The position numbers and the translations under genes are program-made. This document shows positions 16,361 to 19,924 of a DNA stretch of 34,346 bases, one piece after another; the stretch's first letter is position 1, and every line of letters starts with the position of its first letter. A model generated the notes under the pieces. The model made no database searches, was not told where the DNA came from, and saw only the letters and a list, made by a program, of their open reading frames with translations. The stretch comes from an uncultured Candidatus Peregrinibacteria bacterium (GTDB taxonomy: Bacteria; Patescibacteriota; JACMRA01). Location of the stretch: contig CAKZLR010000018.1 of NCBI GenBank assembly GCA_937127165.1, positions 1-34,346 of the forward strand. The letters run 5' to 3'.

Positions 16361-19300
16361 TTAGTTATTTAAAAAATTAATTTTGGATTGTTGTTGATCT
16401 AACTCTTGTTTTCTTTGCAAAAGTTGTTGTCGTTTTTCAGTCACCACCTCAGGGTCGGCATTTTGTACAAAATTGGGATTTTGTAATTGGTTTTGTAAAA
16501 ACTCAATTTGAGTTTCCAAGTCTTTTATAATTTTGTTAGTTCTGTTAACTTCAGTTTGCTTGTTTGGGATATAAGCTAGAATATCCAAAGAGTATTCATA
16601 ACCCTCTTTTTGAACACTATACAATCCCTGCTTTTGTTCTGGTACTATCTCGCTTCTGGTTGTTATCTGGATAAACTTACTGTATTTATTAAGCAATACT
16701 GATTGGGAATATACTTGAATTGATTTGGCAGGATCAATAGCAAACAAACCTCGAGTGGAACGGAGATCTTGAATAAATCTAATAATTGCAGCAAACTCTT
16801 CAGCTTGAACCTGACTATTAGGGTTTTTTGACCACAACTGGCGGTACTGCTCATTTCTCTCGAGAGCAAAAGCTAAAAGGCTTGTTTGGCCAAAAAATTC
16901 CGACCACAAAACTTCTGTTTCAAAAGGTATAAACGGTGAAACTGTGATGATAAATTGCTGAAATAGACTTTTTGCAAAAGCAACCTGTGTTTCGTCTGTT
17001 TTTAGATACTCAATATACCAATCAGCAAAATTGTCCCACAAAAAGCCATACAAAACATCAACCGAGTGAGCTAGTTCGTAGTTTTGTAGATTATGCTCTA
17101 AGTTATCTTGTAAATCTAAATATTTTTGCAAAATCCACCACGAAGCGGAGGCTAGTGATTCTGGTGATAAAAATATTTCGTTTGATACTGGGTTTGTTTT
17201 TAAGAAGGTAGATTTAGGTTTTTCTAGAGCTGTTGTAACTTTTTCTTGCCAATTTCCACTTTTGAATTCTAAAAAACGAGCAACATTCCAAATTTTATTA
17301 CCAAAGTTCCGGTATTTCTCCATTAAACGATCGGCTAAATTACCACCAAATCGCATATTTCTTCCCGGAATCATACCACTCAGCATTGATAGTCTAAGGG
17401 AGTCACTAGAAAATTTAGCGATAGCTTCTCCGGGCTCTAAACCATTTTTCAAAGACTTACTCATTTTACGACCTTTTTCATCCAAAATAGTAGGAGTAAT
17501 TACTAGATTTTCAAAGGGAACACGATTAGTAAAATATTTACCCAAAGTGATCATTCTAACTATCCATAAATAAAAAATCTCTTTGGCCGTAACCATGGTT
17601 TGGGTTGGGTAAAATTCTTCAAAATCAACTTTTTTAGCCAAATTTTGTTCCATTAGTTGGTTGTTAAACTCAGTTCTAAAATTAGTAGAAAATTTGTTTA
17701 GCACAAACTCAATACTTTCTTCAAATCCATTAATTATTTTGCCTTTAACATCTTTTAAATCGACCCACTTAGTAGTTTGATAATCCGCGCAAACACCCTC
17801 TTTTTCGGACTCAGTTTCTACATAGAAAAGATTAGATTCAAGTCGAATGTTTTGCAATTCGTTATTTTTGTAAAAATTGAATCCAAGAAAAATTTTACCT
17901 ACAAAATCCAACTTAGTTATTTCGTTCCTACTTATACCGGTTTCTTCTTCAAATTCTCTTAAAAGGGTTTTTTGAGCAGTTTCACCAAGCTCTAACTTAC
18001 CACCAACTAAATGATATTCAGCTTTTTCTTCACTCACATTTCTGAGTATATCCCAGTTTATTTTGGGAAATAGTAGTTTTTTGGTTTTAGGATTATAAAT
18101 AATTGCATGAGCCCCAAACCGGTTTTGGAAATGCTGGTCCAAACTAATATATTTGGAAAAAGTATAAAAGTAGTTACTATATAAAATATAGTCTTCAATT
18201 TCGGGAAAATGTGGGATATTGAAATGAGCTCGATTATCAAAAATAAACCGCTTGCTGGTTGGCAACCGAGATATTATTTGATTAAATTGCTCAAACGGAA
18301 CAATCTGATCGTCGGTGGAGTGATAGACAAAAATTTGCTCACAGTTTTCTTTGATTAAATCAAGTTCGGTTTGAATCTCAAAAGTATAAGCATCAGTGCA
18401 AGCTGCCACCAAATGAAGTTGCTTCACTTTGAGAGAGTTTTCGGATAGATATTTGAGTAAAAAGTTACCACCAAGACTGTGACCAACTAAAAATAGTTCA
18501 TTTTCTGGATCAATTTGAGCAATATATTTTTCAAACCAAATCTTCCAAGCTTCATAATTGGCATTTTGTTTGTTTGGCATTTGTGGGTAAAACACTTCTA
18601 TTCCAGCACTGGAGAGTTTGGTAAACAAGTTGATTTTCCAGTCGATTTTTTGCTGGCGAATGTCTATCTCTCTTTGCTTCAGCTCCTCCAGCATTTCTTG
18701 GTCAGTTTTAAAAGCATCTCCACCACCAACTATTACTACAGTTTTTTGAGGTTTAACTGTTTCCACGAAATCCAAAGTAGATAGCGGCCAAAGCGAGGAT
18801 GAAAACCAAGTATCTAAAATTTTGCTTTCTTGTACCCAGTTTCCAGGTAAATCAGGCTTATTTGGACTAACTTGGAATTTGTGCCTAATTTCAGGATTTT
18901 TCAACCACTCTTGATAACTAAAAAATTTTTTTTCTGGATTGGTGTCTAAATTATACCACACAGGAATTTTATGACCCCAGGTAAGATCTCGAGAAATACA
19001 CCAATCAAGAACATTTTGGATAAAATTTTGACCTCTTTGTCTAAATTCACTAGGATAAAAATTAACCTCATCTAAACCTTTAAGGGTTAGTTTTTGTAAG
19101 TTGGTTTTTTTGCTAAACAACTTGTGAATATCCTCAAACTTGTCCAGAATTTGACTTTCTGGTAGTATTTCAAGTAATTTATCTTTACCTGCCCAGCCCC
19201 AGCTGCAACCAATAATTTTGGTTTTGTCCATAAAGTTCTGTAATTCAATCACATCATCTTTAGTGTCAGTAAAATAGTAAACTTGTGTGGGAGATATACC

Positions 19301-19924
19301 CCAATCTTTACAAACTTGAGTGATTTTTTCCTCCTTGGAGTGGTTATCCTCTCTACCTAAAATGTGAGTGAAGTTTAACTTACAATTTCTGATTTTCGGT
19401 AAAATTAACAACTCTTTTGAAGAACTAGAAACAATTGCAAGTCTTGTGTTTGAGATTTTAGCAATTTCGTTAACGAACCCTTCAAATAGACAAAACTCTT
19501 TATTAGCCATGTACCTTATAAAATTCCAACTGGCAACAGCCTGCTGTTCAAACTCTTCTTGGCTCAGTCCATGATTTTTATGATGTCTGGGTTTATCAAA
19601 ATATTCATCTCTCATTTCCTTAGCTTTTTTGTAGTCACCACCGGCTCTCAGCTCAGCCCAACAAGCTAAATTAGCTTCGTCGGAATCGGCTAGTACTCCG
19701 TCATAATCAAAAATTAAATACTTAGTTTCTGCACACGAAGAATGATCAAACTCTTTGTGGTAGCTGAGAAAAAATTCATCACTAATCAACGGTTCAATAA
19801 CTGTTTTGGATCTTTCACAAATAGACACATTATGTTCATAGTTCCAGTCCACTTGGAATTGTGTAAACCGTTCTTTTAATTCAGAAACCCTTTTTTGATA
19901 GTCTGCCTCGCTAAAGTTATTCAT
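16361..19924 (-). CDS. valS: Valyl-tRNA synthetase C-terminal half (KMSKS half) with inserted HAD, alpha/beta-hydrolase and NUDIX domains
   Basis: ValRS segments: YEHNVSICERSKTVIEPLIS, VLDWCISRDLTWGHKIPVWY, ILDTWFSSSLWPLSTLDF, YPTQTMVTAKEIFYLWIVRM, KGRKMSKSLKNGLEPGEAIAKF, and a C-terminal coiled coil. No HIGH motif. Inserts at roughly 19115-19729 (HAD), 18179-18751 (alpha/beta hydrolase) and 17687-18124 (NUDIX). Confidence 0.92.
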   Translation of the reverse strand: MNNFSEADYQKRVSELKERFTQFQVDWNYEHNVSICERSKTVIEPLISDEFFLSYHKEFDHSSCAETKYLIFDYDGVLADSDEANLACWAELRAGGDYKKAKEMRDEYFDKPRHHKNHGLSQEEFEQQAVASWNFIRYMANKEFCLFEGFVNEIAKISNTRLAIVSSSSKELLILPKIRNCKLNFTHILGREDNHSKEEKITQVCKDWGISPTQVYYFTDTKDDVIELQNFMDKTKIIGCSWGWAGKDKLLEILPESQILDKFEDIHKLFSKKTNLQKLTLKGLDEVNFYPSEFRQRGQNFIQNVLDWCISRDLTWGHKIPVWYNLDTNPEKKFFSYQEWLKNPEIRHKFQVSPNKPDLPGNWVQESKILDTWFSSSLWPLSTLDFVETVKPQKTVVIVGGGDAFKTDQEMLEELKQREIDIRQQKIDWKINLFTKLSSAGIEVFYPQMPNKQNANYEAWKIWFEKYIAQIDPENELFLVGHSLGGNFLLKYLSENSLKVKQLHLVAACTDAYTFEIQTELDLIKENCEQIFVYHSTDDQIVPFEQFNQIISRLPTSKRFIFDNRAHFNIPHFPEIEDYILYSNYFYTFSKYISLDQHFQNRFGAHAIIYNPKTKKLLFPKINWDILRNVSEEKAEYHLVGGKLELGETAQKTLLREFEEETGISRNEITKLDFVGKIFLGFNFYKNNELQNIRLESNLFYVETESEKEGVCADYQTTKWVDLKDVKGKIINGFEESIEFVLNKFSTNFRTEFNNQLMEQNLAKKVDFEEFYPTQTMVTAKEIFYLWIVRMITLGKYFTNRVPFENLVITPTILDEKGRKMSKSLKNGLEPGEAIAKFSSDSLRLSMLSGMIPGRNMRFGGNLADRLMEKYRNFGNKIWNVARFLEFKSGNWQEKVTTALEKPKSTFLKTNPVSNEIFLSPESLASASWWILQKYLDLQDNLEHNLQNYELAHSVDVLYGFLWDNFADWYIEYLKTDETQVAFAKSLFQQFIITVSPFIPFETEVLWSEFFGQTSLLAFALERNEQYRQLWSKNPNSQVQAEEFAAIIRFIQDLRSTRGLFAIDPAKSIQVYSQSVLLNKYSKFIQITTRSEIVPEQKQGLYSVQKEGYEYSLDILAYIPNKQTEVNRTNKIIKDLETQIEFLQNQLQNPNFVQNADPEVVTEKRQQLLQRKQELDQQQSKINFLNN

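Follow-up and report, generated by a model that had tools for sequence, protein, structure and literature searches.

One of the open reading frames (ORFs) in a contig of 34,346 nucleotides from an uncultured Candidatus Peregrinibacteria bacterium (CAKZLR010000018.1, here called the window) encodes the second half of a valyl-tRNA synthetase (ValRS), and the complementary first half is a separate gene on another contig of the same genome. We interpret this ORF as the beta chain of a ValRS that is naturally split and heteromeric (alpha + beta), through a fission specific to this lineage, which also repeatedly takes whole small enzymes into the linkers of essential proteins, and give this reading a probability of roughly 0.87. 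It would be a split class Ia synthetase that is new in the enzyme concerned, in the site of the cut and in the three enzymes carried by one of its subunits.

The beta ORF has an ATG start and runs for 1187 codons without an internal stop. Pfam and NCBIfam searches recognise the second half of a ValRS only, as tRNA-synt_1 from profile position 184 onward, Anticodon_1 and Val_tRNA-synt_C, and the best NCBIfam models are those for valS (2.5e-100). A motif scan found WCISR..WGH, DTWFSS and KMSKS (residues 820-824, window 17453-17467), and the HIGH motif is absent from all 1187 residues. The anticodon-binding domain (PF08264) and the C-terminal coiled coil (PF10458) are both present. A preliminary description, made from the letters of the DNA, had already called the ORF a ValRS without its N-terminal half, and these searches confirm this, together with its placing of the ORF start at the end of the CP1 region, where the ValRS match begins. 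Its account of the content, from KMSKS to the coiled coil, stands for the ValRS-derived part, about half of the ORF; it overlooked three inserted enzyme domains (HAD, alpha/beta-hydrolase and NUDIX) in the rest. The upstream gap, which it had judged unable to encode the missing part, is 209 bp long and holds no recognisable remnant of it. In the AlphaFold model of beta the ValRS parts have a predicted local distance difference test (pLDDT) score of mostly about 80-98, and the best PDB match is the ValRS of Thermus thermophilus (1GAX, 1.5e-18).

The same description had placed the missing half outside the window and predicted a separate ORF of 350-450 residues with HIGH and a CP1 region ending near the CP1 exit. 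Such an ORF exists. The genome of the window (G000) is a metagenome bin of 938 kb in 68 contigs, 84% complete, and a search of these contigs with PF00133 returned IleRS, a partial LeuRS, MetRS, the beta ORF and one further match on contig C28 (profile positions 22-182). The latter is the alpha gene, an ORF of 387 residues (G000:C28:3875-5038, minus strand) inside a contig of 8,602 bp, with a Dus-like gene on one side and a peptidase gene on the other. It opens with its own ATG and closes with the tandem stop TAA-TAG, well away from the contig ends. The protein starts with MPLSPNYDPKKYEQDIYTLW, contains PPPNLTGELHAGH and has the HIGH motif in the form HAGH (LHAGH). The Lys, Thr, Asp and Asp of the editing site are kept in TVRPET and GTGALKITPGSDISDY, with Ser replacing the His that precedes the first Asp. 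The AlphaFold model averages a pLDDT of 86 and mostly exceeds 90 in the editing domain. Its best PDB match is again 1GAX, at a template-modelling score by query of 0.53, a value explained by a rotation between the two domains.

The two ORFs are complementary. Alpha stops at LLESGYVPLKQSS and beta takes up at WNYEHNVSICERSKTVIEPLIS, with the fission point immediately upstream of the CP1 exit strand NYEHNVSICERSKTVIEPLISDEFF, and the C-terminal end of alpha coincides with the end of the crystal construct of the T. thermophilus ValRS editing domain (1WKA). With the intact ValRS of the sister genus JACMQI01 (G003) as the query against G000, alpha covers residues 1-408, and the beta matches cover residues 431-472, 472-593, 590-722 and 716-984. 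The family alignment places the start of beta's own linker about 25 residues ahead of the conserved WNYEHN, and jointly the halves tile the G003 enzyme as 1-408 (alpha) and about 425-985 (beta). The ValRS of a second sister, G002, gives the same two-half result as a query. Laid end to end, alpha and beta have the same domains, motifs and order as the T. thermophilus and G003 enzymes, which differ in being single chains with no inserted enzymes. Neither the PF00133 search nor the G003 and G002 queries found any ValRS other than the single alpha and the single beta in this 84%-complete genome, and the second full-length valS, which by the preliminary description would have refuted its reading, did not appear there. 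Complementary ORFs and no full-length copy are what a two-gene synthetase leads us to expect, although at this completeness the absence of the latter is not final.

We propose that the gene underwent fission where the CP1 editing domain ends, in a linker of variable length, giving two genes at separate places. The cut would be tolerable because the length of this linker varies within the family. Alpha would supply a complete editing domain and, of the Rossmann fold, the half with HIGH; beta would supply the KMSKS half, the anticodon-binding domain and the coiled coil. The chains most likely assemble non-covalently, each contributing one half of the active site; since the halves of known ValRSs pack as one Rossmann fold, chain association is the simplest route to a working enzyme. 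The pair is predicted to charge tRNA-Val, and would do so after activating valine, with editing of Thr-tRNA-Val. The inserts, placed in two surface-type loops, most likely act on substrates of their own.

Five sister genera of the same class and one further record (CALIJC01) served for comparison. In G003 the ValRS is a plain chain of 985 residues, with no inserts, and in G002 (JACMRA01) it is a single chain of 1297 residues with a GNAT domain in the loop that matches the HAD site of beta. In G004 (CALITC01) a ValRS ORF of 712 residues ends with WNVARFLKD, and a second ORF, of 262 residues, encodes the anticodon-binding domain; the two pieces are 3 kb apart with three unrelated genes between them, all inside a 66-kb contig. 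In G001 (JAAUSE01) the anticodon-binding domain is likewise a separate ORF, of 272 residues, inside a 33-kb contig, and the first part of the ValRS runs off a contig end. The CALIJC01 contig ends exactly at the position of the G001/G004 break, and G001, G004 and CALIJC01 group as a clade (support 100/99) in a tree built from the N-terminal half. The break in G001 and G004 precedes the anticodon-binding domain and that of G000 is at the CP1 exit, so one family has two separate ValRS fissions, each in a linker whose length varies. Because G001 and G004 carry this second, different fission, the lineage evidently tolerates breaks in ValRS. The same break point, which the preliminary description had proposed looking for in related genomes, is not shared by them: the other family members that span the CP1 point are continuous, save for a single in-frame TAG in G005 (JAOZKL01), which replaces the Glu of EPLIS in an otherwise single ValRS frame (L070, about 5808). 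We do not count this TAG as a split, as it is a one-base change in a roughly 7x draft assembly and may be an error.

The survey was widened to 193 further Patescibacteria genomes with a completeness of at least 90%. Among the 149 matches to alpha listed from genomes other than G000 there was no other CP1 break, and the frames were of normal length except in G095, G106 and G150, where they lie at contig ends. The short ValRS frames of these three and of G015 and G018, all at contig ends, were rejected as splits. Long ValRS frames in G049, G008 and G047 (L151, L152 and L154) were rejected as carriers of the inserts seen in beta, as they host one or two histidine-phosphatase domains instead, at another position and in an unsplit chain. 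Inserted small enzymes thus occur in ValRS outside the class studied here as well. In a further genome, a match to the ValRS C-terminal coiled coil lies in a 65-residue frame apart from the ValRS frame (G129:C38:12018-12188, minus strand), a possible further fission.

The inserts of beta deserve a closer description. Pfam places the HAD domain at residues 70-226, the alpha/beta hydrolase at about 391-596 and the NUDIX domain at 603-726; the HAD domain sits in a loop just past the CP1 exit, and the other two lie in tandem in a loop after DTWFSSSLWPLSTL. The DxD, S/T, K and acidic IV motifs of HAD enzymes are present (FDYDGVLAD, VSSSS, SKEEK and TDTKDDV; PF13419, 3e-12), and the insert is 35% identical, over almost its full length, to a standalone HAD protein of 220 residues in G002. 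The serine hydrolase has its GxSxG nucleophile in GHSLGG, its Asp in HSTDD and its His in RAHFN; its best PDB match is RBBP9 (1.5e-5), and it is 36% identical to an ORF of 208 residues in G001, where the full match contains stop codons. The NUDIX domain has an exact Nudix box, Gx5Ex7REUxEExGU (PF00293, 5e-12). Given the matches to the standalone HAD protein and to the G001 ORF, whole enzymes seem to have been captured, probably by in-frame insertion of what had been separate genes. From their intact motifs we infer that the inserted enzymes are probably still active on their own substrates, riding on the synthetase. The idea that they are instead tied to its function, for example by additionally clearing incorrect aminoacyl esters or damaged nucleotides, strikes us as doubtful. 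The kept catalytic motifs, the recurrence of like small enzymes across several synthetases of the family and the RBBP9-like nature of the hydrolase speak for it. Against it, the insert set varies by genus (a GNAT in G002 and no insert in G003 or G005), and the same kinds of enzyme are found inside CarB and Der, proteins unconnected with aminoacylation.

Several points weigh against a split ValRS. The bin is 84% complete in 68 contigs, so that the missing part may hold a full-length valS; alpha and beta are located on different contigs; and the CP1 break was found in one genome only. The structure models are of single chains and model the inserted domains only at low confidence (pLDDT below 65), where they are uninformative. 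The reason for this is a lack of aligned relatives for the inserts, and the alignment behind the beta model was made without standalone HAD, hydrolase or NUDIX rows. Expression, assembly and catalysis of the pair we infer from the two genes.

The first two of these points could also mean that the cell has an undivided gene, which was broken up or mixed during assembly or binning, and several other bins do have a ValRS cut at a contig end. We consider such an artefact improbable. Both ORFs lie well inside their contigs among other genes, each with its own start or stop, and at the break there are 209-267 bp of DNA unrelated to ValRS; no ValRS remnants were found adjoining alpha or beta. The halves are exactly complementary, unlike the products of chance breaks. 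Composition points to a single organism: the tetranucleotide correlation between C28 and the window (r 0.977) falls within the range of the other G000 contigs (0.972-0.983), with relatives at 0.962 or lower, and in the N-terminal-half tree alpha is inside the family clade (support 100/100).

About equally improbable is that alpha and beta are a decaying pseudogene pair, while the 16% of the genome outside the bin holds the full-length valS that does the work. The completeness of 84% leaves room for such a gene, yet there is no frameshift or stop across 387 + 1187 codons, the motifs are kept in both halves and in all three inserts, and a clean, non-overlapping cut is not expected for the relics of one gene. 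That the halves become a single working chain after transcription or translation, by trans-splicing or a split intein, is very unlikely: nothing was found in its favour, the two genes are unlinked on the available contigs, alpha has a plain stop after '...YVPLKQSS', beta is an ATG followed by a linker that resembles those of relatives, and we saw no intein-like sequence at the alpha or beta ends, no Pfam intein match and no trans-splicing signals.

Split synthetases are rare. In the LeuRS of Aquifex the HIGH half and the KMSKS half are on separate chains, as we propose for this ValRS. PMC4975002 lists this LeuRS, split in its leucine-specific domain, beside the pheT of Altiarchaeales and the AlaRS of Nanoarchaeota. 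The preliminary description had cited the Aquifex aeolicus enzyme as a split within CP1; this has to be corrected, as the break is in the leucine-specific domain (Ma et al. 2006, as cited in PMC4975002). The Aquifex LeuRS and the proposed split ValRS are alike in making a class Ia synthetase from two genes. They differ in the enzyme, in the break site and in the Aquifex beta subunit carrying no other enzymes; a ValRS broken at the CP1 exit is not an Aquifex-type split LeuRS. The archaeal cases resemble ours in being broken in a poorly conserved linker, with two non-adjacent genes in a small-genome lineage; they concern other enzymes in Archaea, and the passages of PMC4975002 consulted report no inserted enzymes. 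Small enzymes inside class Ia synthetases have parallels in the histidine-phosphatase ValRSs above and in an IleRS with an inserted or associated N-acetyltransferase (NF040702, by its title), which is also unsplit and has another domain type. Our search of the open-access literature, with subscription journals and preprints mostly outside its reach, turned up no account of a split ValRS and nothing relevant on NUDIX or histidine-phosphatase inserts in ValRS.

In the proposed ValRS the editing domain would be naturally separated from the second half of the active site. Since sister genera of this family have the enzyme intact or cut elsewhere, the fission of an essential enzyme can be observed before and after, and the family offers a natural test of how far such an enzyme can be cut and built upon. 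There is also a practical consequence: pipelines that count full-length valS as a marker gene would miscount such genomes.

Table 1. Coordinates of the beta gene and its parts in the window, and of the separate ValRS pieces in two sister genomes.
Feature	Position	Strand	Evidence
ValRS beta gene, C-terminal ValRS half with three inserted enzyme domains	16361..19924	-	
Beta N-terminus, residues 1-62, with a variable linker followed by the CP1 exit strand NYEHNVSICERSKTVIEPLISDEFF	19739..19924	-	
Inserted HAD-family hydrolase, residues 64-262	19139..19735	-	
ValRS catalytic segment, residues 263-390: WCISRDLTWGH ... DTWFSS	18755..19138	-	
Inserted alpha/beta serine hydrolase, RBBP9/YdeN-like, residues 391-596	18137..18754	-	
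Inserted NUDIX hydrolase, residues 597-740, complete Nudix box GKLELGETAQKTLLREFEEETG	17705..18136	-	
ValRS catalytic segment with KMSKS, residues 760-890	17255..17647	-	
Linker between catalytic core and anticodon-binding domain; G001 and G004 ValRS broken here	17165..17254	-	
Anticodon-binding domain, residues 921-1090	16655..17164	-	
C-terminal coiled-coil tRNA-binding arm, residues 1110-1187	16364..16597	-	PF10458, structure model
G004 ValRS pieces	L073 5826-7964 and 10980-11768		
G001 separate anticodon-binding ORF	L075 5104-5922		

Inserted enzymes were also seen in other proteins of the family. In the window, a LeuRS that runs off the contig end (31621-34344, plus strand) has an RBBP9-like hydrolase in CP1 (residues about 268-440) and a NUDIX domain at residues 681-786. 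Elsewhere in G000, the large chain of carbamoyl-phosphate synthase (CarB, 1593 residues; L138:2132-6913, minus strand, on C23) has NUDIX, HAD and NUDIX domains mid-protein, and the GTPase Der/EngA (868 residues; L147:555-3161, plus strand, on C13) has its two G domains separated by two HAD-like domains. The LeuRS of G002 hosts an inserted hydrolase, and its ThrRS (L135:568-2937) a NUDIX domain directly after HSFAHLMAAAVE; the latter gene adjoins one for a standalone HAD, a relative of the HAD inserted in ValRS. In G003 the LeuRS (L139:2373-5999) has NUDIX and Ham1/RdgB-like domains in CP1, and a LeuRS fragment of G001 (L143:1-939 and 1063-1875) has the same pair in an interrupted reading frame. 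NUDIX matches fall in frames of more than 700 residues in 6 of 28 cases in the family and in 1 of the 149 best-scoring matches listed for other Patescibacteria (Fisher p 6e-5, with the matches within a genome not being independent).

The inserts in the loops of LeuRS, ThrRS, CarB and Der suggest that small genomes may keep housekeeping enzymes nested in indispensable ones. A broader hypothesis, to which we give even odds, is that this class nests complete, active small enzymes (HAD, NUDIX, RBBP9-like, GNAT and Ham1) in the linkers of essential proteins genome-wide and breaks the same kinds of linker, the split subunit having four activities on one chain; nesting and fission would then be two outcomes of one tolerance.

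A further ORF of the window (13204-15156, minus strand, 650 residues) matches the ribonucleotide-reductase barrel over no more than a short stretch in its middle (profile positions 209-357). We rejected it as another split gene, since each of the five sisters has short matches of this kind beside a normal reductase, and there is a separate full reductase.
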